DNA from: Micromonospora luteifusca
GTDB lineage: Bacteria; Actinomycetota; Actinomycetes; Mycobacteriales; Micromonosporaceae
NCBI RefSeq assembly: GCF_016907275.1
Contig: NZ_JAFBBP010000001.1
Location: forward strand, 2,780,001-2,844,000
Direction: 5' to 3'
DNA length: 64,000 bases
Positions 28,174-59,388 of the stretch are shown one piece after another; position 1 is the stretch's first letter, and every line of letters begins with the position of its first letter. Under the pieces are notes generated by a model that saw only the letters and a program-made list of their open reading frames with translations, was not told the origin of the DNA and ran no database searches. The position numbers and the translations under genes are program-made.

Positions 28174-28247
28174 GGTTTTCGCCGGAGCCCGACCCGCTCC
28201 GGGCGGTCAGGCTTGATCCCTGCGCGGGTCGGGCTCCGGCGAAAACC
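28174..28247. repeat. Palindromic repeat family 2, copy 1 (intergenic)
   Basis: Perfect 24-bp arms (28174-28197 and 28224-28247) enclose a 26-nt loop (28198-28223, centre GGCGGTCAGGCTTGATCC). The loop is identical to that of copy 3 on the opposite strand and one base different from copy 2, while the arms differ. It lies just after hmgA and could also act as a terminator between hmgA and the convergent TPR gene. The rest of the gap, to 28318, shows no gene. Confidence 0.9.
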
Positions 28248-28318
28248 TGACCTGGTCGAGCTAACCGACGCTAGGTGATCTTCTGGATGCGGCCGCGGTC
28301 GGGTGGCCGGAGGGTGGG

Positions 28319-29347
28319 TCAGCGGAGGGCTGTTCTGGTGAAGACGGTGAACTCGGCTACCGCCGTGACCGCGATGGCCAACACCAGGGGCCACGGGGAG
28401 CCGACCACCGCGTACACCAGCAGCAGCACCGGCGCGGAGGCCACGGCGTAGATCGCCAGCGCCATCGCCCGGTCCGAGTGCAGCATGGTGGGCAGGACGG
28501 TCCGGGTCAGCCCCGGCAACCGGGCCGCCAGCTGCCAGACGACGATCCCCCCGGTGAGCGCGGCGAGCACCGCCAGGATGCGGGAGAAACCGTCGTTCGC
28601 CGAGGCCGCGAACGCCACCAGCACCGCCGCCGCCAGCGTCCAACCCGCGCCGTAGAGCACCAGGCGGTGCAGGCCGTGCGCCAGGGTCCGCGGCGAGTCG
28701 ATTCGGCTCGGGGTGATCGTCACGGCCTCGGCGATGTGTTCCAACGCCTCCGACCAGCGGCGCTGCTCCAGTCGCATGACACCCACATCGTGCCCGGCCT
28801 CGGCGATGCGCGGGTCGAGCCGCAACGCCTCCCGGTAGGCCCGCTCAGCCAGGTCGAACAGGTCCAGTCGGGCGGCGACCAGACTGAGCACCAGGTGCGC
28901 CTGTGGCTCCTCCGGGGCCAGTTCGACCCCACGCCAGGCCGCGTTCAGCGCCGGCTGACCGTTGCGGGCGCCGGCCAGGATCGCCGCCGCGCTCCGCTGG
29001 GCGTACGCGTCGGCCGGGCCCAGGGCGAGGATCCGGTCGGCGGTGGCGGCCGACTCGGAATAGCGCTCCAGGTCGGACAACGCCATGCCCCTGGCGACCA
29101 ACGGCGGGAGGGTCTCCGGTGCGACCGCCACGGCCGTGTCCGCAGCGGTGAGCGCCTCGGCCGGACGGTCGGCGGCCAGGTGCACCCGGGCCAACATGGT
29201 GAGGGCGTCCACGTCATCCGGTTGCAGGGCCAGCCCGTAGGTCAGCTCCCCGGCCGCCTCGTCGTGGCGGCCGAGCTCGGCCAGGAGTTGGGCCCGCTGG
29301 ACGTAGCCGTCGGCGGCGGACCGGTCGGGGGCGGGATCGCTGGACAT
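28319..29347 (-). CDS. Tetratricopeptide-repeat membrane protein
   Basis: The 342-aa product has several TPR units in its first two thirds, for example AELGRHDEAAGELTYGLALQ, LALGPADAYAQRSAAAIL and AERAYREALRLDPRIAEAGH. Four hydrophobic helices follow at the C-terminus (ILAVLAALTGGIVVWQLA, then VLLLVYAVVGSPWPLVLAIA). It probably scaffolds proteins at the membrane face. The ATG at 29347 is preferred because upstream residues overlap ispF in another frame. The gap to ispF is 10 bp, so it is probably in the ispD-ispF transcript. Confidence 0.75.
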   Translation of the reverse strand: MSSDPAPDRSAADGYVQRAQLLAELGRHDEAAGELTYGLALQPDDVDALTMLARVHLAADRPAEALTAADTAVAVAPETLPPLVARGMALSDLERYSESAATADRILALGPADAYAQRSAAAILAGARNGQPALNAAWRGVELAPEEPQAHLVLSLVAARLDLFDLAERAYREALRLDPRIAEAGHDVGVMRLEQRRWSEALEHIAEAVTITPSRIDSPRTLAHGLHRLVLYGAGWTLAAAVLVAFAASANDGFSRILAVLAALTGGIVVWQLAARLPGLTRTVLPTMLHSDRAMALAIYAVASAPVLLLVYAVVGSPWPLVLAIAVTAVAEFTVFTRTALR

Positions 29348-29357
29348 CGCGGCGAGC

Positions 29358-29840
29358 TTAGGCGGCCGGCGCGTCGTACACCAGGGCAACCGCGACGCCC
29401 GCCAACCCTTCCTCGCGGCCGGTGAAGCCGAGCCCGTCGGTGGTCGCGGCGGAGACGGTGACCGGGGCGCCGACGGCGGCGGACAGTACCTGCTGTGCCT
29501 CCGCCCGGCGGCGGCCGATCTTGGGCCGGTTGCCAACGACCTGCACGGACACGTTGCCGATCTCCAGGCCGGCGGCCCGCACCCGGCGGGCCGTCTCGGT
29601 CAGCAGGGCCACCCCGGACGCACCGGCCCACTCCGGCTCGCCCACCCCGAAGGCGGAGCCGAGATCACCGAGGCCGGCGGCGGAGAGCAGCGCGTTGCAG
29701 GCGGCGTGCGCGGCCACATCGGCGTCCGAGTGCCCGGCGAGGCCGTCCTGGTCGGGCCAGAACAGGCCCGCCACCCAGCACGGCCGGCCGGGCTCGAACG
29801 CGTGCACGTCGGTGCCGATAGCCACCCGGGGAACGATCAT
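29358..29840 (-). CDS. ispF: 2-C-methyl-D-erythritol 2,4-cyclodiphosphate synthase
   Basis: IspF catalyses the fifth step of the non-mevalonate isoprenoid pathway, forming MEcPP with loss of CMP. The 160-aa product has the zinc ligands Asp11 and His13 (GTDVHAF) and His45 ([13 protein letters not shown]), and the HSDADV motif. A conserved C-terminal [16 protein letters not shown] segment contacts the nucleotide. It follows ispD by 16 bp. Confidence 0.96.
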
Positions 29841-29856
29841 GATCAGAGGGTACGCG

Positions 29857-30552
29857 TCAACCGGAGGCGGCGAGCAGATGCTCCGCGAGGGCCAGGTCGA
29901 ACGGTCGGGTGATTTTCAGGGCGTACTCCGAGCCCGGCACACAGCTCACCGTGACGCCCTGCTTCTCGACGAGCCCGGCGTCGTCGGTGAGGGGGTCACC
30001 GGCGACGGCGTGCGCGGCGCTGAGGACGGCCCGGCGGAAACCCTGCGGGGTCTGCACCGCGCGCAGGGCGGAACGGTCGACGGTGCCGAGCACCACCTCG
30101 CCGGCACCGACCTCCTTGATCGTGTCGACGACCGGCAGAACCGGGATCACCGCGTCATGCCCGTCCCGGACCGCCGCCGCGACGGATTCGACGAGCTCGG
30201 GAGGGGTGAGCGCGCGGGCGGCGTCATGCACCAGGACGATCGTCGGGCCGGCGGGCACCGCAGCCAGCGCGGCGGCTACCGACGCCTGCCGTTCCGCACC
30301 GCCTGCCACCACGATCACCGGCGCGATCGGGGCCAGCAGCTCACGGACGGCCTGCACCTCGGCGACCGGCGCGGCCACCACGATCGTGTGCACCGACGGT
30401 GCGGCGGCAAGTCGACGCACGGCGTGCACCAGCAGCGGCTCGCCGGCGAGCAGGCGCAGCGCCTTGGGTCGGCCGGGGCCGAGCCGTACGCCAGCACCCG
30501 CCGCAGGCACGAGGACCGCGACGTCACCGCGCGGATTGAGCTGCGCGGTCAC
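29857..30552 (-). CDS. ispD: 2-C-methyl-D-erythritol 4-phosphate cytidylyltransferase
   Basis: IspD couples MEP to CTP. The 231-aa product has the nucleotide-binding start [19 protein letters not shown], the [14 protein letters not shown] segment and the substrate-contact region AVQTPQGFR. The GTG at 30552 gives normal family length; a longer frame upstream is non-coding. carD lies 56 bp upstream on the same strand, the order found across actinobacteria. Confidence 0.95.
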
Positions 30553-30608
30553 GTCGCGGTCCTCGGTGGTTTCTCTGCTACGAATCGGGTACGACGATGC
30601 TGTGCGGA

Positions 30609-31094
30609 CTAGGCCTCGGTAAGGACCTTGTCGAGCAGCGTCTCCGCCTCGTCCTTGGTGCTCTTCTCGGCCAGCGCAACCTCGCCGACGAGAATGTCCC
30701 GGGCCTTGGCAAGCATTCGCTTCTCGCCTGCGGAGAGGCCCCGCTCCCGCTCCCGGCGCCACAGGTCACGCACGACCTCGGCGACCTTCAGCGGATTGCC
30801 GGAAGCCAGCTTTTCCAGGTTGGCCTTGTAACGCCGCGACCAGTTGGTCGGCTCCTCGGTGTGCGGAGCCCGCAGAACGTCGAAGACCTTACCGAGGCCC
30901 TCTTCGCCGACCACCTCGCGAACGCCCACGATCTCGGCGTTCTCGGCGGGCACCCGGACCGTCAGGTCACCCTGCGCGACCCTCAGGACGAGGTATTGCT
31001 TAGGCTCGCCCTTGATGACCCGAGTCTCGATTGCCTCGATGAGTGCGGCCCCGTGGTGGGGGTAAACAACGGTCTCGCCGACACTGAAAACCAT
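30609..31094 (-). CDS. carD: CarD-family RNA-polymerase-binding transcription regulator
   Basis: CarD binds RNA polymerase beta subunit and stabilises open complexes at many promoters, including rRNA promoters in mycobacteria. The 161-aa product starts [19 protein letters not shown] (Tudor-like polymerase-interaction domain). Its helical DNA-binding C-terminus includes [17 protein letters not shown] and [16 protein letters not shown]. Length and sequence are typical. Confidence 0.97.
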
Positions 31095-31421
31095 AGGTTC
31101 GAAACCCCTTTCGCTGTGTCTAGGGTAACACGGTCAGGCAGCGATGTCTCACCGATGTCCTGACCGTTGGCGCAGCTCAGGGGCCCTGTGAGAGGTCTTG
31201 CTTCAGCTTGACAGGCGGTCAAACCAATGGTTCGAACACGCTCCGTAACGTGCGGATGACTGCCCGGCACGGGTGAACAGAACGTCGAGATCAAGGGCTA
31301 TGCGCTCCTCCCATGGTATCCCGCCCGGCGCAACTGCGCCCAGATGTAGCGGGAGGTGCCCCTGGTGCGGGACCCTGGAGACCGAGCCGCACTCCGCTCT
31401 CGAGCCCCTTCAGGAGGTCCG
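31095..31421. promoter_or_regulatory. Intergenic region with carD promoter
   Basis: A minus-strand -10 box TACCCT (31122-31127) lies 28 bp upstream of the carD start. A perfect short inverted repeat TTGACAGGCGGTCAA occupies 31208-31222; its purpose is unknown. The right end supplies an AGGAGG ribosome binding site (31413-31418) for the plus-strand gene. No other gene is visible in these 327 bp. Confidence 0.5.
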
Positions 31422-32114
31422 ATGGGCAAGCCCGATGCAGAGGGCCAGGGGCCAACCGACGGTCTGCCTGGCCTGCCGCCCGAATGGGGCCGGGTCGTGG
31501 TCCCCGACGACGCCTCCGCGCTTGCCGCCGAGGCCGCCCAGGTCCGCCGCGAGCTGCGCCGGGCCACCGGTCTGTCCGGCGACCCCCGGGCTCTGGGCCT
31601 GCCGCTGCTGGTCCTGCTGGTCGCGGTCCTCACCACGCTGGGCGGCCTGCTAGCGGTCACCTGGCCACGGGCCAACCGTGGCAACGACCGACCGACCCCG
31701 GCCCCCTACTCGCCACCCGCGACCCTCACCGGGCGGGCACTGCCCGCACTGGACCTGGTCGACGCGAGCAATGCGCCGGTGCCACTGCGCGGCCTGCTGC
31801 CCGCCATGATCATCCTGGTGGACGGCTGTCCCTGCCCGGAGCGTGTCGCCGACGCCCTGGCGGCCGCGCCCGCCGGTGTCTCCGTGGTCACCGTCACCGG
31901 CGGGCGGACGGTCTCGGCCCCGCCAGCCAACCAGCGGCAGGTCCGGGCACTCGCCGACCCCGCCGGCGGGCTGCGCTCGTTCCTGGGCCAGCCAGCCAGC
32001 CCAGGAGGCCTGACCGCGTTGCTGGTCGACCGCGGTGGAGTGGTCACCCGGGTGCTGCCCGACCTGGGGCCGGTCGAGACGTACCGGCAGGACCTGACAG
32101 CCCTCGCCGCCTGA
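31422..32114 (+). CDS. Membrane-anchored protein with thioredoxin-like outer domain
   Basis: The 230-aa product has a cytoplasmic N-terminus, one helix near residues 63-82 (LGLPLLVLLVAVLTTLGGLL) and an outer domain. The domain pattern ALPALDLVDASNAPVPLRGL, then MIILVDGCPCPERV, resembles peroxiredoxin/TlpA folds. The expected CXXC is replaced by CPCPE with only two nearby cysteines, so redox activity is uncertain. The start has AGGAGG at good spacing. It stands alone between carD and a family 1 palindrome. Confidence 0.55.
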   Translation: MGKPDAEGQGPTDGLPGLPPEWGRVVVPDDASALAAEAAQVRRELRRATGLSGDPRALGLPLLVLLVAVLTTLGGLLAVTWPRANRGNDRPTPAPYSPPATLTGRALPALDLVDASNAPVPLRGLLPAMIILVDGCPCPERVADALAAAPAGVSVVTVTGGRTVSAPPANQRQVRALADPAGGLRSFLGQPASPGGLTALLVDRGGVVTRVLPDLGPVETYRQDLTALAA

Positions 32115-32133
32115 CCCGACGAGGCCCGAGGTA

Positions 32134-32208
32134 GATCGACTCCGTGTCGGCGATGTGGCGATTTCCCGGCACGGTGGATGCCGCGACGCCGGCGATGTGG
32201 AGTTGATC
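32134..32208. repeat. Palindromic repeat family 1, copy D
   Basis: This 75-bp imperfect inverted repeat is bounded by GATC. Left arm GATCGACTCCGTGTCGGCGA is close to consensus; the right arm has a rearranged core. It sits between two convergent genes. The remaining gap (32115-32298) shows no gene. Confidence 0.7.
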
Positions 32209-32298
32209 TGCGGCCGGACGGTCGGCTGGCTTCGGTGGCTGGTCGGCCGCGGGCCGGTGGGGGCCCGTGGGTACGGGAACGGCCGGCAGACCCCAGAC

Positions 32299-32919
32299 TC
32301 AGGGCATCACGAAAAGTTGCGCCTCGGCATCGATGGGGTGATCGCCCAGGGCCGTCAGGGACACCCGGATCGGCCCGCCAGCGGGCAGCACCTCGGCGGT
32401 GGCCATCGTGCCGTCGCAATCGATGTGCGACGGACCGGCGATCGCGGCCCCGGTGCTCGTCACCATCATCGCGCCGGGCCGGGTGCACCGGTATTGGAGC
32501 AGGTAGCGCGCGCCGTCGTTGGTCGACTGTCTGGTCACGTCCTGACCGGGGATCAGCTCCCCCTGCTGCCGCCAGATCGTCCCTTCGAACACGGGCAGAT
32601 CACCCGGGGCGTCACCGGTGCCAAGGGTCGCGCCCACCTGCGGGTCGAACGTCCTCGTGGGGCGTCTGATCTCGAGGACCTCACCCGTCTCGGGGTCAAC
32701 TCGAAAGGTCACCGAGTCGTCGGGCTCCGTCGACGGCAGGAGGCGTTCCAGTGAGCTGACGGTCGGCTCGACGCTCGGCGTGGCCGCTGGCGGACGAGCC
32801 GAACTGGCCGCCGGGGTGGGAGCGGCGGCCCGCCACCACCAGCCGCCGGCCACCAGGGCAGCCACGGTCACCCCGACCAGCACCACCGACCGCAGCCGGT
32901 CGTCCGTCGTTGGATCCAT
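32299..32919 (-). CDS. Hypothetical membrane-anchored exported protein
   Basis: The 206-aa product has one N-terminal helix (SVVLVGVTVAALVAGGWWW), a Pro/Ala/Ser-rich linker, and an outer domain with a single pair of cysteines (YRCTRPG and HIDCDG) that could form a disulphide. No family is recognised. Its start is 24 bp from the end of the type III polyketide synthase gene on the same strand, so it may be co-transcribed with that cluster. Confidence 0.6.
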   Translation of the reverse strand: MDPTTDDRLRSVVLVGVTVAALVAGGWWWRAAAPTPAASSARPPAATPSVEPTVSSLERLLPSTEPDDSVTFRVDPETGEVLEIRRPTRTFDPQVGATLGTGDAPGDLPVFEGTIWRQQGELIPGQDVTRQSTNDGARYLLQYRCTRPGAMMVTSTGAAIAGPSHIDCDGTMATAEVLPAGGPIRVSLTALGDHPIDAEAQLFVMP

Positions 32920-32943
32920 CCGGTGAGCGTACCGGCGGGATGT

Positions 32944-34002
32944 TCAGTCCTGTCGATCGAGCAGAGCGGCGTAGAGGGTCAGACCCGGGCCGAAGGCCAG
33001 CATGACGACACGTCGAGCCGCCGGTGTCGAGCGGCCCAGCCGGTCCAGGATCAGCAGCACCGTCGGCGACGAGCAGTTGCCATGCTCGTCGAGCGTCGCC
33101 CGGGACGCCGCCAACCCCTGCGGAGGAAGGGCCAACTCCCGCTCGACCACGTTGAGGATCCGCGGCCCGCCCGGGTGCACCGCCCAACCGTCCACCTCGG
33201 AGCTGCTGACCCCGTGCCGAGCCAACAGGTCGTCGATCAGCCCGCGGACATGCCTCGAGAGCACCTGCGGCACCTTCGGTGACAACCCCATCCGGAAGCC
33301 CGCGTCGGTGACGTCCCAGGTCATGTGGTCGGCGGTCGAGGTATCGGTGACGGCGGTGACCTCGCGTAAGGCGTACCCCCGGCCCCCCGGCACGACCACG
33401 GCGGCGACCGCGGCGTCCGAGAAGAGCGCGTGGGAGACGATCTGCTGGGTGTCCACCCGGGCGCTGGACGGCTGGATGTGCAGGCTGGTCAGCTCCGCGC
33501 AGAGCAGCAGCGCCGGTCGCCCCCGCGCGGTGACGAAATCACTCGCCGCACCGAGCCCCGGCAACGCCGCGTAGCAGCCCATGTGGCCGATGAACATCCG
33601 CTGGGTGTCCGCAGCCATACCGAGATCCCGAGCGAGCAGGATGTCCAGCCCGGGGGTGGCGTACCCGGTGCAGGAGCAGACGATGAAAAGCCCGATGTCG
33701 CCGGCGCCCAGCCCGGCGGCGGTCAACGCACGACCCACCGCCTCCTTGCCCAGCGGCAGAGCCTCCACCTGGTACCGGCGCATCCGGCGCTCGGTCGGCC
33801 AGTCCGAGACGTCCTCCAACAGGGGGTTGACCGAGGCCTGCCGCCGGGTCACCCCCGAGTTCGCGAAGATCCGCTGGGCCAACGACCGGGTGGTGCCGGA
33901 GAAGTGCCGAGCGAAGAAGCCCTCCCACAACTCGTCCTGCAATGCCGACGGCGGCTGTGCAATCCCGAGCCCTGCGATCACTGGTACGGACACGATCCCC
34001 AC
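32944..34002 (-). CDS. Type III polyketide synthase
   Basis: The 352-aa chalcone/stilbene-synthase-type enzyme condenses malonyl-CoA with a starter acyl unit. The catalytic triad is visible as Cys143 (GHMGCYAALPGL), His276 (AVHPGGPRIL) and Asn309 (DEHGNCSSPT), numbered from the GTG at 34002. A GTG at 33990 has better ribosome-site spacing and would shorten it by four residues. With the next three genes it matches the gene content of the Actinoplanes agq cluster, where AgqA makes alkylresorcinol-type precursors (family knowledge; product here inferred). Confidence 0.92.
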   Translation of the reverse strand: MGIVSVPVIAGLGIAQPPSALQDELWEGFFARHFSGTTRSLAQRIFANSGVTRRQASVNPLLEDVSDWPTERRMRRYQVEALPLGKEAVGRALTAAGLGAGDIGLFIVCSCTGYATPGLDILLARDLGMAADTQRMFIGHMGCYAALPGLGAASDFVTARGRPALLLCAELTSLHIQPSSARVDTQQIVSHALFSDAAVAAVVVPGGRGYALREVTAVTDTSTADHMTWDVTDAGFRMGLSPKVPQVLSRHVRGLIDDLLARHGVSSSEVDGWAVHPGGPRILNVVERELALPPQGLAASRATLDEHGNCSSPTVLLILDRLGRSTPAARRVVMLAFGPGLTLYAALLDRQD

Positions 34003-34087
34003 CTCTCGTCAGACGCTGTCCTCCCCCTGACCGACCCACCAGCCACCTCGGCCGGCGTACCTCCCGCGCGCGTCCCGCACGACCCGC

Positions 34088-35254
34088 TCACCAACGTGGT
34101 GCCGATGCGTCGCGATCCGGGTCGCCTCCCAGCGCGGCAATGCCGAGCCAGTCGGCGCAGACATCCGACGTGGCCGGGTGCAGGGAGCCGCAGCGGGCAT
34201 CCCGGTAGAGCCGCTCCAACGGATGACCACGGCGGGTCGCCGAGGTGCCCGCCGCCTCCAGCACCGACGCCGCCACCTCGGCGGCGGTGGTGCCGGCGAG
34301 CAGCTTCGCCCGCCACACCCAGCGGTTGGTCTCCTCGTCGCCCGGTGCCTCGTCCACTCGACGGGCCGCCTCGGCGACCACCAGCTGCGCCGCCGCCGTC
34401 GCCGCGTCGGCCCGACCCAGCCGGGCACGCACCGCCGGCAGACCGGCCAGCTTGCGCGCGTTGAGATGCTCGGCCGCCGCGTCGATCGCAGCCCGGGCGA
34501 CCCCGACGTAGACAGCGGCGTAACTCGCCACCAGCCAGTGCGGCATCAGCTGGGCGACCACCAACGCCAGACCCTCGACCCCGCCGAGCAGTCGACCGGC
34601 GGGCACCGTGACGTCCAGGTGCAGGTCGTGTGAGGAGGTGGCGCGCATGCCGAGCGAGTCCCAGGTCGGCTCCACGGTCAGGCCATCGCCGGCCGGCACC
34701 AGAAACTGCGAGACCACCGACTGGTCGGCCGCGCTGCGCGCCGCCACCAGGTAGCCGTCGGCGTGCCCGGCACCGGAACAGAAGGTCTTGCTGCCCTTGA
34801 GATGCCAGCCCTCTTCGGTCGCCTCGTAGACCGTGCTCAACTGGGACAACCGCGCGCCGGCACCACGCTCGCTCATCGCCACCGCGTACCAGGAACCCTG
34901 CGCGGCGGCGGTGAGCAGGCGGTCCCTGGCGGCCAACGCCTCGTCCGGTACGCCCAACGCCTCGGCCAGCTCCTCGGTGACGGCGCCCAACGCGCCGGTC
35001 ACCGAGGCGTGCATGTTGAACACCAGGGCGGTCGCGCCGTTGCCCCGGGCAAGCTCAGTTGCCACTGCGGTGTATTCGGCGAAGGAGGCTTCCATGCCTC
35101 CCAACGCGCGGGGCACCATCAACCCGAAGAGGCCGGCCTCCCGCAGGTCACGGAAGTCGTCCACCGGAAAGGAACCGTCCTGGTCGTGCTCCGCCGCCCG
35201 CGCGGCGAAACGTGGCGCCAACCGGCGGGCCGCCTCAAGCGCCTGCACCGTCAT
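34088..35254 (-). CDS. Acyl-CoA-dehydrogenase-like flavoprotein, probable tailoring monooxygenase
   Basis: The 388-aa product has the acyl-CoA dehydrogenase fold: helical N-domain (GLFGLMVPRALGGMEASFAE), middle beta domain (YAVAMSERGAGA, then WHLKGSKTFCSGAGHADGYL) and helical C-domain. The usual catalytic Glu region is not obvious. Proteins of this type act as flavin monooxygenases in secondary metabolism, and an analogous gene (agqB) hydroxylates the alkylresorcinol in Actinoplanes. The ATG at 35254 has GGAGGAGG upstream. It lies between the polyketide synthase and methyltransferase genes. Confidence 0.8.
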   Translation of the reverse strand: MTVQALEAARRLAPRFAARAAEHDQDGSFPVDDFRDLREAGLFGLMVPRALGGMEASFAEYTAVATELARGNGATALVFNMHASVTGALGAVTEELAEALGVPDEALAARDRLLTAAAQGSWYAVAMSERGAGARLSQLSTVYEATEEGWHLKGSKTFCSGAGHADGYLVAARSAADQSVVSQFLVPAGDGLTVEPTWDSLGMRATSSHDLHLDVTVPAGRLLGGVEGLALVVAQLMPHWLVASYAAVYVGVARAAIDAAAEHLNARKLAGLPAVRARLGRADAATAAAQLVVAEAARRVDEAPGDEETNRWVWRAKLLAGTTAAEVAASVLEAAGTSATRRGHPLERLYRDARCGSLHPATSDVCADWLGIAALGGDPDRDASAPRW

Positions 35255-35295
35255 ATCGCCTCCTCCTCGGATTGCCGTACCCCGCCACGGCCCGA

Positions 35296-36066
35296 CTATC
35301 CGCTTCGGACCCCCCGGCCCTGGTAGAGCACGGCGGTGGAACGCGTCGGCACGATGCGCGGCACGCGGCCAGCCGACGTCGCACCCGTACGGGCCGCGCG
35401 GGCCCGCCGCAGCAGCCAGGCGACCAGACCCCCGGCCTGCGGACGGATGCCGCGCAGCCGTAGGTCGACGCCATGCCGTGCGCATTCGGCCACCAGCGCC
35501 CGAGCGTCCACGAACAACCGTGGGTCGTGAATGCCCCGCGGCACCGTCGGCAGCCGCTCGGCGAGCCGTACCGCAACGAGCCGGGCCAACGCCGTGTCGT
35601 TCAGGGTGTCCAGCACCAGCAGGCCACCCGGGCGCAACAGCCGGCACGCCTCGGCCACCACCCGCGGCCAGGCCGGCACATGCTCCAGCAACTCACCCGC
35701 CGAGACCACGTCGGCGCAGCCGTCCGGGAGCGGAACCGCGGTGGCGTCGCCCTGGACGACGCACACGCCGTGCTCGGCTGCCTGGACCAGCGCCGAGCGG
35801 GTCAGATCCACCCCGACGTGGCGGTAGCCCTTGCCGGCCAGGTGCGGCGCGAGCAGGCCCGCACCGCAACCCAGATCGACAAGCAGGGCGTCCGGACGGG
35901 TGGCCGGCGGCACCAGCGCGGCACGGGCCTCAGCCAGCCAGTGCAGCATCGCGAACACGCCATCCGGCCGCCACCACTCACCGGCCAGATCGTCATACTG
36001 GCGCGGGTCGTTACGCGGCAGCACCCGGGGGCCGGAGGACGCCGCGGCCGCAGCCACGTCTCGCAT
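35296..36066 (-). CDS. UbiG-like class I SAM-dependent methyltransferase
   Basis: The 256-aa product has motif I LLVDLGCGAGLLAPHLA, motif II GVDLTRSALVQAAEHG and the GELLEHVPAWPRVVAEACRL region typical of UbiG-type O-methyltransferases. In the agq-type cluster the equivalent enzyme methylates a quinol hydroxyl. The ATG at 36066 faces the UbiA gene across 46 bp, so the two share a divergent promoter region. The longer upstream frame is antisense to UbiA. Confidence 0.85.
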   Translation of the reverse strand: MRDVAAAAASSGPRVLPRNDPRQYDDLAGEWWRPDGVFAMLHWLAEARAALVPPATRPDALLVDLGCGAGLLAPHLAGKGYRHVGVDLTRSALVQAAEHGVCVVQGDATAVPLPDGCADVVSAGELLEHVPAWPRVVAEACRLLRPGGLLVLDTLNDTALARLVAVRLAERLPTVPRGIHDPRLFVDARALVAECARHGVDLRLRGIRPQAGGLVAWLLRRARAARTGATSAGRVPRIVPTRSTAVLYQGRGVRSG

Positions 36067-36112
36067 GGAACCGAGCGTGGCACGACTGCTCGGTAACGAC
36101 CAGACTTCCCTT

Positions 36113-42750: not shown

Positions 42751-43668
42751 ATGACTCAACCCGATTTCGCCACCCTGGTCAGCCGGTGGTTCCAACAACA
42801 CGCCCGTGACCTCCCGTGGCGTGAACCCGGGACCACCCCCTGGGCCATCCTGGTCAGCGAGGTCATGCTCCAGCAGACACCCGTGGTCCGAGTGGTGCCG
42901 GCATGGCAGGCATGGCTGGCCCGCTGGCCCGAGCCGGCCGCGTTGGCGGCGGACACCCCAGCCGAGGCGATCCGGATGTGGGGACGTCTCGGCTACCCCC
43001 GTCGAGCCGTCCGACTGCGGGAGTGCGCGGTCACGATCGTGGACCGGCACGGCGGCCAGGTGCCGGACCGGCTGGAGCAACTGCTGGCACTGCCCGGAGT
43101 CGGCACCTACACGGCCCGGGCGGTGGCGGCATTCGCGTACGGGCAGCGGCACCCGGTCGTCGACACCAACGTACGTCGGGTGGTTTCCCGCGCCGTGGCC
43201 GGCGAGCCCGACGCCGGGCCGGTCACCCGACCAGCCGACCTGGTCGCCACCGAGGAACTGCTCCCGGCGGCACCGGCCGCAGCGGCACTGGCCAGCGCCG
43301 CGTTCATGGAACTGGGTGCGGTGATCTGCACGGCCCGGTCACCACGCTGTGCGGCCTGCCCGGTCGAGTCGGTCTGCGCGTGGCGTGCCTCGGGCCAGGA
43401 AGCCCCGGCCGGACCGACCCGTCGACCCCAGCGGTACGCAGGCACCGACCGACAGGTACGCGGCCTGCTGCTCGGGGTGCTCCGAGAAACCGCCGGGCCA
43501 GTCCCACACCAACGGCTGGACCAGGTCTGGACCGATGACGCGCAGCGTGCCCGAGCCCTGGCCGGCCTGGTGCAGGACGGGCTGGTCGAACCGGCCGGCA
43601 CCGGTTCCTTCCGCCTCGTCGGCGACGGCCCGCCCCAACCCACCACCAACCTCACCAGCTCGCCATGA
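42751..43668 (+). CDS. mutY: A/G-specific adenine glycosylase
   Basis: MutY removes adenine mispaired with 8-oxoguanine. The 305-aa product has EVMLQQTPV, the helix-hairpin-helix LPGVGTYTARAVAAFAYG, catalytic Asp in VDTNVRRV, and the [4Fe-4S] set ICTARSPRCAACPVESVCAW. The C-terminal 8-oxoG-recognition domain is short or degenerate. Its stop codon overlaps the first bases of palindrome copy E. The ATG at 42751 has no strong ribosome site. Confidence 0.93.
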   Translation: MTQPDFATLVSRWFQQHARDLPWREPGTTPWAILVSEVMLQQTPVVRVVPAWQAWLARWPEPAALAADTPAEAIRMWGRLGYPRRAVRLRECAVTIVDRHGGQVPDRLEQLLALPGVGTYTARAVAAFAYGQRHPVVDTNVRRVVSRAVAGEPDAGPVTRPADLVATEELLPAAPAAAALASAAFMELGAVICTARSPRCAACPVESVCAWRASGQEAPAGPTRRPQRYAGTDRQVRGLLLGVLRETAGPVPHQRLDQVWTDDAQRARALAGLVQDGLVEPAGTGSFRLVGDGPPQPTTNLTSSP

Positions 43669-43740
43669 TCGACACCAGGTCGGCGATGTGGGGTTATCCA
43701 AGCCGCGGGACACCCCCACATCGGCGACCTGGTGACGATC
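43667..43740. repeat. Palindromic repeat family 1, copy E
   Basis: The best-preserved copy: 33-bp arms about 29/33 complementary and an 8-bp centre. The left arm begins GATCGACACCAGGTCGGCGA. It starts within the mutY stop codon and fills the first part of the gap between convergent mutY and clpC. Confidence 0.9.
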
Positions 43741-43844
43741 ACGCTCGCCTCTCCCGGCCCGGCGGTCGGTCCTTGCGGGTGGTGCCAAGAAGGCGCACCA
43801 AAGGCGGCGCCCAGAACGCGGCACCAAAGAAGAGCGGCACTGAC

Positions 43845-51792: not shown

Positions 51793-51808
51793 GTCGCCGA
51801 CGCGCCCG

Positions 51809-52705
51809 CTACTCAATCCGCAGGTCCAGCGCGATGTCCAGGATCGGCGACGAGTGGGTCAACGCGCCCACCGAGAGGAAGTCGACGCCGGTGGCCGCGT
51901 ACCGGCCCGCCACCTCCAGGGTCAGCCCGCCGGTCGCCTCCAACTCCGCCCGGTCACCCACCGCGGCCACCGCCTCGGCCAGCACCTCCGGCGTCATGTT
52001 GTCGCAGAGCAGGAAATCCGCCCCGGCCTCCACCGCCTCCACCGCCTCGTCGACCGTGGTCACCTCGACCTGCACCGGCACCTCCGGGAACGCCTCCCGG
52101 ACCCGCCGGTAGGCCGGCGTGATGCCCCCGGCCGCCAGCTTGTGGTTGTCCTTGATCATGGCCACGTCGTAGAGGCCCATCCGCTTGTTGGTGCCGCCGC
52201 CGGCCCGCACCGCGTACTTCTCCAGCGCCCGCAGGCCCGGCGTCGTCTTGCGGGTGTCCAGCACCATCGCCTTCGTGCCAGCCAACGCGTCCGCCCAGGC
52301 GCGGGTGTGGGTGGCCACCCCGGACATCCGGCAGAGCAGGTTGAGCGCCGTCCGTTCGGCCGTCAGCAGCAGCCGGGTCGGGCCGGTCACCGTCGCCAGC
52401 ACCGCACCGCGGGCCACCCGCTCGCCGTCGCGGGCCACCACCGACACCTCGACGGTACGACCGAAGCCCGTCACCTCGCCGACCAACTCGAACACGGCGG
52501 CGGCCACAGCCATCCCGGCCAGCACACCGTCCGCACGGGCCACCAGATCGGCGGTGTCGGTCTGCTCCGCCGGAATGGTGGCCACGCTCGTGACGTCCAG
52601 GAAATCCGGGCCCAGATCCTCGATCAGCGCGGTCTCGATCACCTGCCGCACCTGCGCCGGATCCAACCCTGCCGCCTGCAAAGCCGCCTGCGTCGACTCC
52701 GTCAT
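51809..52705 (-). CDS. nadC: Nicotinate-nucleotide pyrophosphorylase (carboxylating)
   Basis: NadC converts quinolinate and PRPP to nicotinate mononucleotide. The 298-aa product has the segments LLCRMSGVATHTRAW, LDTRKTTPGLRALEKYAV and GGGTNKRMGLYD, with the MIKDNH motif. The ATG at 52705 overlaps the nadB stop (ATGA) and has GGGAGGGG upstream, so it is coupled to nadB. nadA is not in the window. Confidence 0.96.
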   Translation of the reverse strand: MTESTQAALQAAGLDPAQVRQVIETALIEDLGPDFLDVTSVATIPAEQTDTADLVARADGVLAGMAVAAAVFELVGEVTGFGRTVEVSVVARDGERVARGAVLATVTGPTRLLLTAERTALNLLCRMSGVATHTRAWADALAGTKAMVLDTRKTTPGLRALEKYAVRAGGGTNKRMGLYDVAMIKDNHKLAAGGITPAYRRVREAFPEVPVQVEVTTVDEAVEAVEAGADFLLCDNMTPEVLAEAVAAVGDRAELEATGGLTLEVAGRYAATGVDFLSVGALTHSSPILDIALDLRIE

Positions 52706-54399
52706 GAAGATCGCCCCTCCCAGTGCTGCCCTATCCGGCCCTGCGCCCCAACCGACCCGACCAGGTGGCCCAGCCACCGCTCGTCGGCCGTCGGAAAATC
52801 CTCCCGCCAGTGGCAACCCCGAGTCTCGCCGCGCGCGTACGCGGCAGCAACCAGCGTGGACGCCACGGTGAGCAGGTTGGTCGCCTCCCAGTCGGCGGTC
52901 CGCGGCCGGCCCCGGGCAGCGCCCAGCTCGGTCAGCGTTCCGGCTGTCTCGGCCAGCGTCGCCGCGGATCGGAGCACCCCGGCCCCCCGCGTCATCGCCC
53001 GTTGCAGGGTCGGCGTCACCTCCGCGGGCAGCACCCAGCCGGCGCCCCCGCGCCAGGCACCGGTGTCCGCCGGCTGAACCTGCTCGGGCAGACCGGCCGC
53101 AATGTCCTCAGCGATCCGCCGGGAGAAGACCAGACCCTCCAGCAGCGAATTGCTGGCCAGCCGATTCGCGCCGTGCACACCCGTGCAGGCCACCTCGCCG
53201 CAGGCGTACAGGCCCGGGATGGAGGTGCGGCCGCGCAGATCGGTGCGGACGCCGCCGGATGCGTAGTGGGCGGCCGGTGCCACCGGAATCAGGTCGGTCG
53301 CCGGGTCCACGCCGATCGCCAGGCAGGACGCCACGATGGTGGGGAACCGCCCGGCCAGGAAGTCCCCACCCAGGTGCCGCGCGTCGAGGAAGACGTGGTC
53401 CGCGCCGGTGGCCAGCAACACCCGGTGGATGCCCTTGGCCACCACGTCCCGGGGTGCCAGCTCGGCCAACTCGTGCTGGCCCACCATGAACCGCTTGCCG
53501 TCGGCATCCACCAGGTACGCGCCCTCACCGCGCAACGCCTCGGAGACCAGCGGCTGCTGCGCGTGCCCGGCACCGGGGACTCCCGCGCCGGGTGGAGTGA
53601 TCAGGGCGGTCGGGTGGAACTGGACGAACTCCACGTCGGTCACCGCCGCGCCGGCCCGCATCGCCAGCGCCACCCCGTCGCCGGTGGAGACCGCCGGGTT
53701 GGTGGTGGCCGCGAAGATCTGCCCCATCCCGCCGGTGGCGAGCACCACCGCCCGGGCCAGCAGGGCACCGACGCCGTCCTCGCTGCCCTCGCCGAGCACG
53801 TGCAGGGTGATCCCGCAGGCCGGCCCGAGCCCGTCCGGGCCGTCGCCGGGCGCGCGCAGCAGGTCGAGCACCAGGGCGTGTTCGACCAGCCGGATCCACG
53901 GGTCGCGCTGCACCGCGGCGTGCAGGGCCCGCTGCACCTCCGCACCGGTAGCGTCGCCGCCCGCGTGCACGATCCGGTCCGCCCGGTGCCCGCCCTCACG
54001 GGTCAGCATCAAGGAGCCGTCCGGGTGACGATCGAACTCCGCCCCGATGCGCATCAGCTCCCGCAGCCGGGTCGGGCCCTCCTCGACCAGCACCCGGACC
54101 GCCGCCGGGTCGCAGAGCCCAACCCCGGCGACCTCGGTGTCACGGGCATGCGCCGCCGGGGTGTCCGTCGGGTCGAGCACCGCGGCGATGCCGCCCTGCG
54201 CCCATCGGGTCGAACCATCATCGATGTTGACCTTGGTGACCACCGTGACGTGCAGACCCGCCTCACGCAGGTGCAGCGCCGCGGTCAACCCGGCCACCCC
54301 GGAACCCACCACGATCACGTCGGTGGTCTCCACCCAGCCGGGCGCGGGCGCGGCCAGCAACGCGGGCAGGGCCGGCAGGTCGATGGTGGGAAGGTCCAT
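52702..54399 (-). CDS. nadB: L-aspartate oxidase
   Basis: NadB oxidises L-aspartate to iminoaspartate with FAD, the first step of NAD synthesis. The 565-aa product has the dinucleotide-binding VIVVGSGVAGLTAALHL, the FAD segment GSTRWAQGGIAAVLDP and GGDATGAEVQRALHAAV. The succinate-dehydrogenase-like signature region RTSIPGLYACGEVACTGVHG is also present. The ATG at 54399 is used here; a TTG four codons earlier is possible. nadC follows with an ATGA overlap. Confidence 0.94.
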   Translation of the reverse strand: MDLPTIDLPALPALLAAPAPGWVETTDVIVVGSGVAGLTAALHLREAGLHVTVVTKVNIDDGSTRWAQGGIAAVLDPTDTPAAHARDTEVAGVGLCDPAAVRVLVEEGPTRLRELMRIGAEFDRHPDGSLMLTREGGHRADRIVHAGGDATGAEVQRALHAAVQRDPWIRLVEHALVLDLLRAPGDGPDGLGPACGITLHVLGEGSEDGVGALLARAVVLATGGMGQIFAATTNPAVSTGDGVALAMRAGAAVTDVEFVQFHPTALITPPGAGVPGAGHAQQPLVSEALRGEGAYLVDADGKRFMVGQHELAELAPRDVVAKGIHRVLLATGADHVFLDARHLGGDFLAGRFPTIVASCLAIGVDPATDLIPVAPAAHYASGGVRTDLRGRTSIPGLYACGEVACTGVHGANRLASNSLLEGLVFSRRIAEDIAAGLPEQVQPADTGAWRGGAGWVLPAEVTPTLQRAMTRGAGVLRSAATLAETAGTLTELGAARGRPRTADWEATNLLTVASTLVAAAYARGETRGCHWREDFPTADERWLGHLVGSVGAQGRIGQHWEGRSS

Positions 54400-54507
54400 C
54401 CCCTCAGTCAACCCGAACCGTCCTCGTCCGGGGCGGCGGGGGCGGGACGAGTGTTTTCGGCGACCCCGTCCGGCGTCGCCCGCGCGGTGCCGACCGTCAG
54501 GCCGTGG

Positions 54508-55404
54508 TCACTTCGTCCGGACCGGTAGGCCAGCCGGGCCCGCGCCCTTCAGCGAAACAGTCACCGTACGGTCGCTGAGCCACAGGTAGCAGCGGACGCC
54601 CCGGTCACCGACCCGCCAGCGTCCCGCACCCGGAGGGCGGACCACCACACCGCTGCGGAAGTTCAGCCTGGCGTCGTCCGGCACACCCACGAACCGGGCG
54701 AGGGCGCTCCGGCAGCCGGTGTAGAGCGGAGCCCAGTCGGAGTCACGGCTCGGGTACGCCATGTCCGGTGCACGCCACACCCCGACGAACTCGGCGTCGT
54801 GCTGTTGTGCGCACTCCACCGGGGCCAGCGTCTGCACGGCCCGACCGGCCGCCTTGCGGGTCTGCTGACAGCCGAGCCGCAGCCCGGCGGCCCCCTTCAA
54901 CGCGTCCCGCAGGCTGCCCGATCGAACCACCACGGTGGCCCCAGCCTCGACCGTGTTCAGCTCGGTGAGGTCGCACCGGAACCAACGGGAGCCCGCCGCC
55001 CAGCCGGGCCCGGAGGGCAGCGCCACCGACAGTCGCAGTCGGCCGGCCCGCCAGTCGTCGCCCACGTAGCCGGTCGCCCGGGTGTCGCACTCGGCGAACG
55101 CGCCCCGCAACTCCGCCGAGCCACCCGCCGGGGCGCTCGACCGCTCGACCGGGAACGCCCCCACATGCACGGTCTCCACCCGGTGCGGGCCGGCGCAGTC
55201 CACCGGCTCGTAGCTGGCCAGGGTGACCACATCGAGGAAGTCGGCGGCCTGACACACACCGGCGGCCGGGGTGAACGCCGACGGCGGCGGCAGCGCCGCC
55301 CAGTCGTCGGTCAGGTCACCATCCAGGCCACCGGAGCCGGCGCAGCCCACCAGCAGCACCGCCGCCACGGCAGCGGCGAACAGGGTCGTCGTGGCTCTGC
55401 GCAT
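54508..55404 (-). CDS. Septum-formation-family lipoprotein
   Basis: The 298-aa product has a lipoprotein signal (FAAAVAAVLLVGC) and two related outer units, each with paired cysteines. The first spans AGVCQAADF to SRWFRCDL and the second LRLGCQQT to GVRCYLW. Both contain a C-x-x-x-H pattern (DCAGPHRVE and ECAQQHDAE). This matches the actinobacterial septum-formation domain family of uncertain function. The ATG at 55404 has GGGGGAGG upstream. Confidence 0.75.
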   Translation of the reverse strand: MRRATTTLFAAAVAAVLLVGCAGSGGLDGDLTDDWAALPPPSAFTPAAGVCQAADFLDVVTLASYEPVDCAGPHRVETVHVGAFPVERSSAPAGGSAELRGAFAECDTRATGYVGDDWRAGRLRLSVALPSGPGWAAGSRWFRCDLTELNTVEAGATVVVRSGSLRDALKGAAGLRLGCQQTRKAAGRAVQTLAPVECAQQHDAEFVGVWRAPDMAYPSRDSDWAPLYTGCRSALARFVGVPDDARLNFRSGVVVRPPGAGRWRVGDRGVRCYLWLSDRTVTVSLKGAGPAGLPVRTK

Positions 55405-55499
55405 AGCGGCCTCCCCCAGCCACCGCCGGCTTCCGCCAGCGCGCCAAGGGTAACCGGAAATGACCTTCCGGTAACAGACCGGAATCGCGTCGCGGGAGA

Positions 55500-55928
55500 T
55501 CAGACTCCGGACAGGGCCAGCGGGCTGGGCACCGGATCACCGACCATGCCGGGCGCCACAGCGGCGGGGTCAGCGCCCAACTCGATCACCCGATTGTCGG
55601 CGTTCACGTGGACCACCCGCGGCCGGTACGACCGGGCCTCGGCGTCGTCCATCTGCCCGTACGAAATCAGGATGACCAGGTCACCGGGGTGCACCAGGTG
55701 CGCGGCGGCACCGTTGATACCGATCACACCGCTGCCCCGCTCGCCCGGGATCACGTACGTCTCCAGCCGGGCACCGTTGGTGATGTCCACGATCGCCACC
55801 TGCTCGCCGGGGAGCAGGTCGGCGGCGTCGAGCAGGTCCTCGTCCACCGTCACCGAACCGACGTAGTGCAGGTCGGCCTGCGTCACCGTGGCCCGGTGGA
55901 TCTTCGACTTGAGCATCGTCCGCAGCAT
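55500..55928 (-). CDS. panD: Aspartate 1-decarboxylase
   Basis: PanD makes beta-alanine for pantothenate. It is a pyruvoyl enzyme that cleaves itself between Gly24 and Ser25, seen here as [10 protein letters not shown]. The 142-aa proenzyme also carries the conserved [10 protein letters not shown] and [14 protein letters not shown] segments. It lies 44 bp downstream of panC on the same strand. Confidence 0.97.
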
Positions 55929-55972
55929 TGGGGTGGCCTTTCACGAAAGTGGTGGAGGGTGGTGCGGCCAGG

Positions 55973-56821
55973 TCAGGGGCGAGGTGCGAGGTGGATCGCC
56001 GCGTTGTCGATCAACCGGGTGGCACCCACCCACGCGGCGATCACCAGCCGGGCCGGCCCGGACACCAACCCCGGCTCCAACTCGGGATCGGTGAGCACCA
56101 GGTAGTCGAGGCGGGCACCCGGCGCACCTGCACCGAACGCGGCGTGTGCGGCGGTCAGCACCGCACCCGCGTCCAGGCCCTCGTCGGCGGCCTGCCCACC
56201 GGCCCGCAGCGCGGCGGACAAACTCAGCGCGGCGTCCCGCTCCGGCTCGCTCAGGTAGCGGTTGCGGCTGGACAGCGCCAACCCGTCCGGCTCCCGAACG
56301 GTCGGCACGCCCACCACCTCGACCGGCACGTCCAGGTCCCGGGTCATCCGACGGACCAGGGTGAGCTGCTGGTAGTCCTTCTCGCCGAAGAACGCCAGGT
56401 CCGGCTGGGTGAGTTGGAGCAGCTTCAGCACCACCGTGAGTACGCCGTGGAAGAAGCCGGGGCGGCTCGCCCCCTCCAACTCCGCGCCGAGCGGGCCCGG
56501 GTCGAGGCGTACGCGGGGCTGGCCGTCCGGGTACATGTCGGCCACCGACGGGGCAAAGACGAGATCCGCACCCGCCCGCCGGCACACCTCCAGATCCGCG
56601 TCGAGGGTGCGCGGGTAGCGGTCGAAGTCCTCGTTCGGCCCGAACTGCAGCGGGTTCACGAAGATCGTCACCAGCACGTGGTCGGCCTGCTCCCGGGCCG
56701 CACGCAGCAACGTCTCATGCCCGGAGTGCAACGCACCCATGGTCATCACCACACCGACCGTGCCCGTCAGCCCAGCCCGGGCCTCGGCCAACTCGGCGCG
56801 CGTGTGCACAACCTGCGTCAT
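55973..56821 (-). CDS. panC: Pantothenate synthetase
   Basis: PanC joins pantoate and beta-alanine using ATP. The 282-aa product has the nucleotidyl-transferase motif [14 protein letters not shown] (HxGH), [30 protein letters not shown] and SSRNRYLS. The ATG at 56821 overlaps the stop of the DUF2520 gene (ATGA). DUF2520-panC-panD thus forms a coupled operon. Confidence 0.97.
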
Positions 56822-57774
56822 GCCGTCACCTCCCTGTTGCTGTCGGCCAGCACACCGAGCAGCGACTGCGCGTCGACCGGCCGCAGTCGGCCGGCGGCGA
56901 TCGCCCGGTCGGCGGTCCGGCGGGCCAGCGCACGGTACGCGGGAACAGACTCCGGTGCGGTGGCGGCCAACCGGTCCAGGTGCCGCTGGACGGTGCCCGC
57001 GTCGCCACGGGAGACCGGGCCGGTCAGCGCGTCGTCACCGAGCCGCAGCGCGTTCTCCAGGGCGGCCCGCAGCAGTGGGGCGAGCACCTTCTCCGGCCGG
57101 GCCACCCCGGCGTCGCGCAGCCGGTCGGTCGCCTCGTTGACCAGGGTCACCAGGTGGTTCGCGCCGTGGGCCAGCGCGGCGTGGTAGAGCGGGCGGTCCG
57201 ACTCGGCCACCCACTCGGGCACGCCGCCCAGGTCGGCGACCAGCCGGGCAGCGAGCGGGCGCAACTCCGCCGGGGCGGTCACCCCGTACGAGATGCCGGC
57301 CAGCCGGGCCAGGTCGTCTGGCGTACCGGTGAAGGTCATCGCCGGGTGCAGGGCGAGCGGCCGGGCACCGACCTCGGCGGCCGGCCCCAGCACGGCCAGT
57401 CCGTGCGCTCCCGAGGTGTGCGCGACGATCTGGCCCGGGTGCAGCGCGCCCCGCTCCGCGAGGTCGGTCACCACACCGGCCAGCTCGTCGTCCGGCACCG
57501 CGATCAGCAGCAGGTCGGCGGCGGCGTGGGCCACGGCGGCGACCGGGCGGCGGGGCACCTCGGGCAACAGCAGGGCGAGGCGGGCGCGGCTGGCTCCGGA
57601 ACTGCCGGAGACGGCGACCACCCGATGCCCGGCGGCGGCGAGCGCGGCGCCCAGCACGGCGCCGACCCGACCGGCGCCAACGACACCGACGGTGAGCAGA
57701 CGGGAGGTGGCGGGGGTGCCGAGAACGGCGGGCCCGCGCGGGGCGGCCGGACGCGGGCGCAGCGGTGCGCTCAT
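56818..57774 (-). CDS. Rossmann / DUF2520 protein linked to pantothenate synthesis
   Basis: The 318-aa product has a Rossmann domain ([20 protein letters not shown]) and a helical DUF2520 domain ([20 protein letters not shown]). The layout matches ketopantoate-reductase-like dehydrogenases, and position before panC is conserved (Rv3603c). It could supply pantoate by reducing ketopantoate, but that is inference. The ATG at 57774 is chosen because upstream residues are antisense-like. Confidence 0.8.
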
Positions 57775-58077
57775 GACGACGATCCAGTCCTCGAGAAGGG
57801 GTACCGGTCGATCGCAAGTATGCGCCCGGCCTACCGAACCCGGACAAGCATGTGTGAAAACCTTCACCACCGCCGGAAGTGCCCTTCGCCACCGTCCCCG
57901 ACCGCCCCAGGAGCGCTGCCCACCAGCGCGTTCCCGCAACATCTTGATCAATTGATGAAAAATAGGCACCCGGAGCGTTTCTGACCTACTTTTCATCACC
58001 TGATCACCGCACGGCCCTCCGGCGTCGAGCCGGCCACTGCGGGTGATCACGGCGCACGAGAGACTCGGAGTGAGCTG
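57775..58077. promoter_or_regulatory. Divergent region with AT-rich inverted repeat upstream of midA
   Basis: The 303-bp gap separates the panC operon from the MidA-type gene. An inverted repeat of 14-nt arms with one mismatch (TGATGAAAAATAGG at 57953-57966 and its complement at 57985-57998) has an 18-nt spacer and is AT-rich. It is preceded by TTGATCAATTGATG. Arm centres are 32 bp apart, three helical turns, which suits a dimeric or tetrameric regulator. No gene is visible. Confidence 0.5.
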
Positions 58078-59388
58078 ATGCCGATCGCCTGGGGAGACGC
58101 GATGAGCCGGGCCCTCTACGGGCCGGGCGGCTTCTTCGTCGCCGACACCGGGCCGGCCGACCACTTCCGCACCAGCGTCCACGCGTCCCCAGCCTTCGCC
58201 GCCGCGCTCCTACGCCTCATCACAGAGGTGGACACCGCCCTGGGCCACCCGTCGCGGCTCGACGTGGTCGATGTCGGAGCCGGGCGCGGTGAACTCCTGC
58301 ATGGCCTGCTCAGGCTCGTCGCGTCGACACCCGCCGTCGGGGGTGCGGTGGGGGTTTCCGGGGAGCCCACCCGCTCCGGGCGGTCAGGCTTGATCCCTCC
58401 GCGGGCGGGCTCCCCGGAAACCCTGACTCCCACGGCCTCCGCCGGGGCGTCGGCCGAGGCTGCGCCGATGGTCGCCGCCCGTCCGTCGCTTGCGCAGCGG
58501 GTGCGGTTCACAGCAGTCGAGTACGCGGCCCGCCCCGAGAACCTGCCCGAAGAGATCAACTGGACATCCGAGATCCCCGCCGGGATCACAGGAGTGCTGC
58601 TGGCCACCGAGTGGCTGGACAACGTCCCGTTGGACGTAGCGGTGCACACCGAAGACGGCTGGCGGTACGTGCTGGTCGACCCCGAGAGCGGCGCCGAGTC
58701 GATCGGCGAGCCGGCAAGCCCCGACGATCTTGATTGGCTGAAGACCTGGTGGCCCAGCCCCACAAGCCCGACCAGTACGAACAGTGCCCCGGACTGGACC
58801 TCGGCCTTGACCTCAGCAGACGCGACAAGCGAAAGCGAGTCGGGTTTCGGGGCAGCCCGGCCGGCGCAGGGATCAAGCCTGACCGCCCGGAGCCGGCCGG
58901 GCTGCCCCGAAACCCCCCACAGCGCCCACCGCGCAGAGATCGGAAGAAGCAGGGACGAAGCCTGGGCCAACGCAGTCCAGAAGATCAGCCGAGGGCTGGC
59001 GGTGGCAGTCGACTACGGGCACCTGCGGGAAACCAGGCCGGTCGACGGGACGTTGACCGGGTACCGGGATGGGCGGCAGGTGCCTCCGGTGCCCGACGGG
59101 TCGAGTGATGTCACCGCGCACGTGGCCATGGACTCGGTCGCCTCCGCTGGTGCGGCGGTCGCCCGGTGTGCGTACTCCCTGGTCCTGCAGCGGGAGGCGC
59201 TGCGCGCGCTCGGGGCCGACGGCGGCCGACCGCCGCTGAGCATGGCCGGCACCGACCCGGCGGGTTACGTGCGGGCGTTGGCCGCCGCGTCGCAGGTGGC
59301 GGAGCTGACCGACCCGGTTGGGCTCGGTGGGCACTGGTGGTTGCGCCAACCGGTCGGCATCCCGCTCGGCCGGGCCGTGGCACGATGA
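58078..59388 (+). CDS. MidA/NDUFAF7-type (DUF185) SAM-dependent methyltransferase interrupted by two palindromic repeats
   Basis: The 436-aa product has the family start ([18 protein letters not shown]), SAM motif [31 protein letters not shown] and [16 protein letters not shown]. MidA homologues (NDUFAF7 in mitochondria) methylate an arginine of the 49-kDa complex I subunit. Here the next gene, coupled by ATGA overlap, is nuoD, the bacterial homologue of that subunit. Two palindromic family 2 elements (58352-58423 and 58842-58915) lie inside the frame and remain open, adding segments near residues 92-115 and 255-280. These fall between conserved blocks, so the fold may survive. Confidence 0.85.
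58352..58423. repeat. Palindromic repeat family 2, copy 2 (inside midA)
   Basis: The arms of 23 bp (58352-58374 and 58401-58423, one mismatch) enclose a 26-nt loop (58375-58400) one base different from copy 1. The element is 72 bp, a multiple of three, and is read as part of the MidA-type protein (segment [20 protein letters not shown]). Confidence 0.9.
58842..58915. repeat. Palindromic repeat family 2, copy 3 (inside midA, inverted)
   Basis: Perfect 24-bp arms (58842-58865 and 58892-58915) enclose a 26-nt loop (58866-58891) whose complement is identical to the copy 1 loop. Arm sequence differs from both other copies. It lies in the opposite orientation to copy 2 and is translated as [20 protein letters not shown]. 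Confidence 0.9.

Follow-up and report, generated by a model that had tools for sequence, protein, structure and literature searches.

A dispersed hairpin family with three copies in a 64,000-nt stretch of the Micromonospora luteifusca genome (contig NZ_JAFBBP010000001.1, positions 2,780,001 to 2,844,000; hereafter the window) combines a nearly constant 26-nt tip with long arms that vary in sequence and stay complementary within each copy. The hairpin unit measures ~75 nt, or ~100 nt including its short conserved flanks, is oriented, sits mostly just past genes, and matches none of the catalogued elements tested. We favor, at roughly even confidence, a reading in which it is a dispersed hairpin of 3' untranslated regions (UTRs), similar to the repetitive extragenic palindromic (REP) repeats, that presents its constant tip to a putative partner. 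The matching of the arms is probably maintained by DNA-level arm-to-arm copying during replication.

Hairpins with a constant tip recur far above chance

Element 1 (28174..28247, + strand) carries perfect 24-bp arms around a tip at 28198..28223 (+) that folds as an inner hairpin; element 2 (58352..58423, + strand) has 23-bp arms with one A.C mismatch, and element 3 (58842..58915, - strand) again has perfect 24-bp arms. An earlier note on this DNA had placed three elements with 23-24 bp self-complementary arms at these coordinates, and both a sequence check and covariance-model matches in the window (28174-28247 +, 58351-58424 +, 58842-58915 -) bear it out, as they do its claim of a nearly invariant loop, those of elements 1 and 3 being identical and that of element 2 one base off.

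The note had also proposed comparing loop matches with shuffled sequence, and the loop proves far commoner than chance. The window holds 3 matches to the 17-mer core of the loop at <=3 mismatches, against a shuffle mean of 0.31 and 0/100 shuffles reaching 3, and its 9 hairpins scoring >=14 include all three elements (a single block-shuffled control gave none). Across the 7.16-Mb genome, 15 copies of the core occur at <=2 mismatches, compared with 0 for a reversed-pattern control; all 15 have complementary arms of ~22-26 bp (11/15 free of mismatches, 4/15 with one), and one carries an additional base in its tip. A covariance-model search of this genome returned the same 15 places, with 150 of 17183 first-look candidates scored, and 9 further rows in its list repeat 9 of these copies on the opposite strand. 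Copies without complementary arms, which the note had named as evidence against its reading, form a minority: among 136 distinct exact-loop copies, the stem spans 23-25 bp in 92 and 21-28 bp in 114, and the remaining 22 score as shorter, longer or broken.

The tip folds as a conserved inner hairpin

The 26-nt "loop" forms a small hairpin in its own right (GGGCGGUCAGGCUUGAUCCC), folding as GG-GGUCA-GGCU-UGAUC-CC, with a structured part of 20 nt (GGGC-GGUCA-GGCU-UGAUC-CC) set on the ~24-bp stem; whole elements fold with z-scores of -10 to -13 relative to shuffles. We counted tip pairs in 214 copies with <=5 core substitutions and a stem score >=11, a selection that drops weaker copies and contains no Trueperella variant. 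Pairing is nearly fixed at positions 4-23 (G-C 212, A-U 2), 5-22 (G-C in 211/214), 8-21 (G-C in 212/214), 10-19 (U-A 212, U.G 2), 11-18 (C-G in 214/214) and 12-17 (A-U 208, G.U 1, unpaired 5, of which 3 are A.C), and position 9-20 is a G.U wobble in 212 copies and G-C in 2. The outer position 3-24 is more variable (C.U 181, U.G 20, C-G 7, A-U 3, other 3), and in some copies the lower tip is wholly paired (GACGGG..CCCGTC, GCAGGG..CCCTGC). In Trueperella, C11-G18 has become G11-C18 in 3/8 tips, two of these three being a tandem pair. The tip hairpin is backed by compensatory changes together with the conserved G9.U20; most of the compensatory and wobble substitutions are compatible with pairing on the sense strand, and those of 3 copies are not. 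The earlier note's suggestion that the loop serves as a recognition unit is plausible from sequence, since the loop forms a hairpin that is conserved and retains its G.U pair.

Short flanks belong to the hairpin unit and are enriched over shuffles at near-fixed distances. The 5' flank follows a family motif, TGGTTGCGGTT, beginning 10-13 nt ahead of the arm, and the 3' flank reads TGAC or CGTC, then GTGGTC 3-5 nt beyond the arm; GGTTGC lies upstream in 30/137 copies, compared with 5 expected from shuffles, and CGTGG lies downstream in 39/137, compared with 12. At element 1, the degenerate 5' flank (28161..28173, +) overlaps the upstream stop codon, and the 3' flank occupies 28248..28262 (+).

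Arms covary almost without G-U pairs

Among 65 diverse copies, picked at a stem score >=20, which favors the paired percentage, 540 of 1560 arm cells carry two-sided changes, 11 a one-sided change to another standard pair, and 41 are unpaired. The earlier note's central observation, a constant loop on covarying arms indicating constraint on secondary structure, is thereby supported. In three sets of copies with a stem score >=12 (A, B from other genera, and C, where A and C may overlap in species or loci, the M. luteifusca cdd copy being in both), G.U accounts for 8/2511, 8/1246 and 4/723 arm pairs, respectively, for a total of 20/4480 or 0.45%, and is in none of the sets in excess over A.C. 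Seven tRNAs from the same loci gave a G.U share of 16/156 (10%), a comparison limited to the G.U share because the tRNA finder admits G.U pairs and not A.C.

At orthologous loci the arms show mirrored indels and mirrored multi-base changes; one species carries a quite different arm type at the DUF2550 locus, and identical arm types reappear at unrelated loci. The earlier note had offered as one possibility that the arms derived from the target site or were matched to it, an idea we reject because orthologous arms are mostly alike, change in mirrored fashion and share their types with unrelated loci. Its premise that ordinary copying conserves arms and loop alike overlooks the re-matching of arms when DNA of one arm is copied from the other. 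We infer such arm-to-arm copying from the near lack of G-U pairs in the covarying arms. For the same reason, covariation in the arms does not on its own demonstrate an RNA function; the matched arms may instead reflect strong selection for perfect stems, or the replacement of copies by others. Template switching of this kind has been described to renew perfect stems in RNA genes through two-sided changes (PMC8794818); the hairpins here would share both features, with the difference that they form a dispersed repeat family.

Most copies lie in sense orientation just past a stop codon

Genes were called with a simple script based on codon usage, for which the window served as training sequence; the calls are less sure for Trueperella. 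By these calls, the nearest left gene lies on the same strand as the element in 106 of 136 copies and on the opposite strand in 14, with 15 copies inside a called open reading frame (ORF) and 1 at an edge. The median distance from stop codon to stem is ~22 nt over the 106 same-strand copies, and 21 nt in each of three sets, the M. luteifusca genome, named genomes and other genera. Between tandem genes, ++ outnumbers -- by 35:7 in named genomes, 4:1 in the M. luteifusca genome and 9:3 in other genera, and between convergent genes the element is nearer the sense gene in 29/35, 7/7 and 14/16 pairs, respectively. Element 1 conforms, starting 10 nt past the stop codon that ends a homogentisate-dioxygenase-like gene (26997..28163, +, with cupin and homogentisate 1,2-dioxygenase domains), where the neighboring genes are convergent. 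The upstream genes are diverse (cdd, polA, coaX, gpmA, clpP, nusB, purE and others, with names read from sequence and ten proteins scanned against Pfam), and no common pathway was seen among them.

Several antisense cases amount to a single locus, beside a thiE-like ORF (an identity read from sequence), where the element is antisense to its neighbors (L005, L021, L047, L052, L075, L114, L135). In Trueperella bonasi, one element lies directly ahead of a thiamine pyrophosphate (TPP) riboswitch (L024:2960-3025 and 3042-3145).

The cdd-deoA element is shared by descent and often lost

We compared the cdd-deoA intergenic region in the best 30 of 61 genomes of the genus, of which 29 loci were readable. 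The site is occupied in 16/29 and unoccupied in 13/29; two unoccupied sites (L185 and L190) retain pieces of the element and one (L191) ends at a contig edge, and the 13 as a whole look like deletions, replacements or, for L191, the contig end, with no clean pre-insertion site recognised of the kind that, with a target-site duplication, marks a miniature inverted-repeat transposable element (MITE). Mean pairwise difference among the copies is 0.010 in the tip, 0.15 and 0.16 in the arms, and, gaps counted, 0.67 and 0.54 in the flanks. These 16 copies, which were not selected for their stems, show 26 two-sided cells (shuffle mean 7.5, reached in 0/500 shuffles) and 4 one-sided cells. In this alignment, the element reads as common by descent and repeatedly lost.

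The family is widespread in Micromonosporaceae and patchy beyond

An exact 22-mer scan of a species-genome collection matched at least 120 stretches, and the named records among the matches listed are, we take it, all from Micromonosporaceae, save Trueperella bonasi (2 stretches) and one metagenome-assembled genome of Actinomycetes. With the 22-mer at <=2 mismatches, 78/200 sampled Micromonosporaceae genomes in 16/44 genera are positive, among them 36/38 genomes of the window's genus, and 0/22 genomes of genus g208 have a match. A phylum-wide sample at <=3 mismatches yielded 3/296 positives, namely the genome studied here, one congener, and a match in G229 with 3 mismatches and no stem that we take as chance.

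Sampling the class to which Trueperella belongs gave 5/296 positive genomes. T. bonasi has 8 tips, 7 of them recovered as armed hairpins by the covariance model; G664 has 16 copies and G723 has 2, and the remaining two positives, G204 and G339, appear from their positions to belong to the window's genus. Trueperella and G664 carry the same tip on unrelated arms, and in G664 successive copies in arrays lie 115-170 nt apart (115 and 121 within one array). On the minus strand of a Trueperella locus (L248, offsets 1428 and 1500), two tips are 72 nt apart and the second has no left arm, an arrangement like an unequal tandem duplication.

The family has the habits of REP repeats and a different anatomy

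Rfam gave 0 window matches at gathering score, and at E<=1 the elements at five loci match only sub-threshold microRNA-type hairpins. The tip 16-mer occurs in no paper of the open-licence literature searched, nor do the titles and abstract openings of the papers listed there describe such a hairpin family.

Integron attC sites are oriented hairpins just past a stop codon, with conserved outer core sites and a variable center. Like attC, the elements here are oriented, lie 3' of stop codons and have arms that vary yet remain complementary, but the pattern is reversed, with a constant center on variable arms. Hairpins downstream of the targets of diversity-generating retroelements likewise stand at the gene end, and their loop matters more than the sequence of the stem; here the tip is far longer, and the M. 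luteifusca genome has no reverse transcriptase match. The element is no textbook intrinsic terminator, since TTTT falls within 12 nt past the stem in 0/110 copies, and a terminator scan, which admits loops of 3-8 only, found none at 28174-28247.

The closest resemblance is to REP repeats, whose genomic habits the family shares but whose defining anatomy it fails. The GTAG- and CGTC-tagged repeats are dispersed palindromes that lie mostly 3' of genes or between convergent genes, with some in-frame intragenic, paired or clustered copies, as here; their stems measure 5-13 bp (GTAG) or 8-9 bp (CGTC) and their loops 2-20 or 4-5 (PMC3733652). In contrast, the present family has a ~24-bp stem and a 26-nt constant structured loop in place of the short-stem tagged anatomy, and although CGTC follows some stems, its overall anatomy is unlike the CGTC families. 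Rickettsia palindromic elements (RPE) are described as intragenic palindromes (PMC3733652), which the present family resembles through its in-frame palindromic inserts in protein genes, with the difference that most copies here are 3' untranslated and the tip is the constant part.

Two copies fall within a putative methyltransferase ORF

In opposite orientations, elements 2 and 3 both keep the reading frame of one Methyltransf_28 ORF (58078..59388, +), encoding a putative S-adenosylmethionine-dependent methyltransferase (PF02636) of 436 aa, where they span residues ~92-115 and ~255-279, respectively. Many weaker homologues align on either side and omit residues near 79-132, 230-283, or both, which places the two elements in variable linkers; one homologous locus (L222) is missing most of the second insert and keeps its last residues. 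Other species (L224, L225, L227-L229, L239, L240) have a different recurring peptide, of VIKxFAS type, in the linker of element 3, perhaps another inserted repeat.

Discussion

The orientation of the elements, their distance from stop codons and their mostly sense-compatible tip lead us to favor action in the transcript. There, the long stem would block 3' degradation and/or help end transcription, and would display the tip to a putative RNA-binding (or single-stranded-DNA-binding) partner that keeps the tip constant. The arms would meanwhile drift in sequence and be re-matched by arm-to-arm template switching in DNA, and new copies, made by some copying route, would spread as a REP-like dispersed repeat. 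A less likely and further-reaching possibility is that the family is a new class of 3'-end element, its tip being the binding site of an actinobacterial protein, either horizontally spreading or ancient, that acts on many mRNAs, and its arms self-templated palindromes kept perfect by replication template switching. If so, a single element would join RNA-level selection on its tip with DNA-level self-correction of its stem. The more than 200 hairpins, many at orthologous sites, form a natural series in which tip and arms follow different evolutionary rules, and they make an old question testable: whether covariation in stems passes through G-U intermediates or arises when one arm is copied from the other in DNA. 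They also point to a putative binding partner common to the gene ends of an antibiotic-producing family.

Several results weigh against the transcript reading. The isolated 26-nt tip folds no more stably than its shuffles (z -0.7; 43/200 as good), and its one-sided changes run in both directions, with A12.C17 in three copies, a wobble on the other strand, and U10.G19 in two. Because the element is absent from 13/29 cdd-deoA loci, it is dispensable there. The antisense group at the thiE-like locus and the in-frame intragenic copies break the position rule, and the U-tract is missing. Arm mismatches number 35:8 (A), 11:8 (B) and 10:3 (C) for A.C versus G.U events, an excess of three-fold or more in the genus sets that is not clear in other genera; the lean toward A.C misfits selection acting on sense-strand RNA of the arms, and a strand-specific reading of it was not reproduced in set B. 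In 43 comparisons of closest orthologues differing at a single pair, which are not independent, 31 changes are one-sided and 12 cleanly two-sided.

The main rival is a purely selfish, non-autonomous mobile hairpin, like REP or REPIN repeats or IS200-type ends, whose folded tip some enzyme recognises in single-stranded DNA and which lands preferentially behind genes with no benefit to the host. We consider this possible, if doubtful, and much of the distribution would suit it: the recurrence of arm types within a genome at loci that are otherwise unrelated, the clustered copies of G664, the patchy occurrence in the class sample with two of the five positives apparently from the window's genus, and the in-frame copies in both orientations in a coding gene, to which may be added that G.T pairs can also form in single-stranded DNA hairpins. 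Orthologous cdd-deoA tips, however, stay intact despite diverged flanks, and the model recovers no place in the M. luteifusca genome beyond those 15, a search in which decayed copies could be missed given the share of candidates scored. No mobiliser fits either: the Y1 transposase (RAYT, PF01797; GTAG-REP type only) is absent in 7/11 element-bearing genomes and found in 4/11, reverse transcriptase is absent in 5/11 with a sixth below cut-off, and IS110 Transposase_20 exceeds cut-off in 9/11 positive and 3/6 negative genomes, so that none is over cut-off in all 11, in a panel of 11 positive and 6 negative genomes that is too few for finding a new partner. Five viral contigs match the tip core and none has long arms, and we likewise discount phage as the vehicle. 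An antisense small RNA to the tip was also considered and rejected, the 17-mer core having no match in the M. luteifusca genome outside the 15 elements at <=2 mismatches, a search that did not extend to weaker complements.

That these are ordinary gene-end terminators or mRNA stabilisers sharing a functionless loop through recent spread seems unlikely to us. Their great stability and their position just past stop codons and between convergent genes would be expected of such hairpins, but in both Trueperella and G664 unrelated arms bear the same tip, which is also kept at the shared cdd-deoA locus; the stems are not followed by a U-tract, and some copies, as at cdd-deoA, lie between co-directional genes with a short gap. 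Less probable still is a DNA site recognised as cruciform or duplex by a chromosome-organising or replication protein; palindromic arms nearly free of G-U pairs would accord with it, whereas the orientation and the short distance to the stop codon do not, and the conserved G.U of the tip and the 20 U.G variants at position 3-24 suit the sense single strand and not the other strand.

Other repeats in the window

A second palindromic family shows the opposite pattern, with fairly conserved arms (GATCGACACCAGGTCGGCGATGTGG type) and a variable center. It occurs in the window at 3650-3729, 4816-4899 and 43662-43741, and at L014:1056-1141 and 1247-1332, with one tip hairpin on either side of these two copies. 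Seven overlapping register copies with a 27-nt period at 18361-18612 of the window look like an in-phase ORF repeat rich in Pro, Gly, Gln and Trp.

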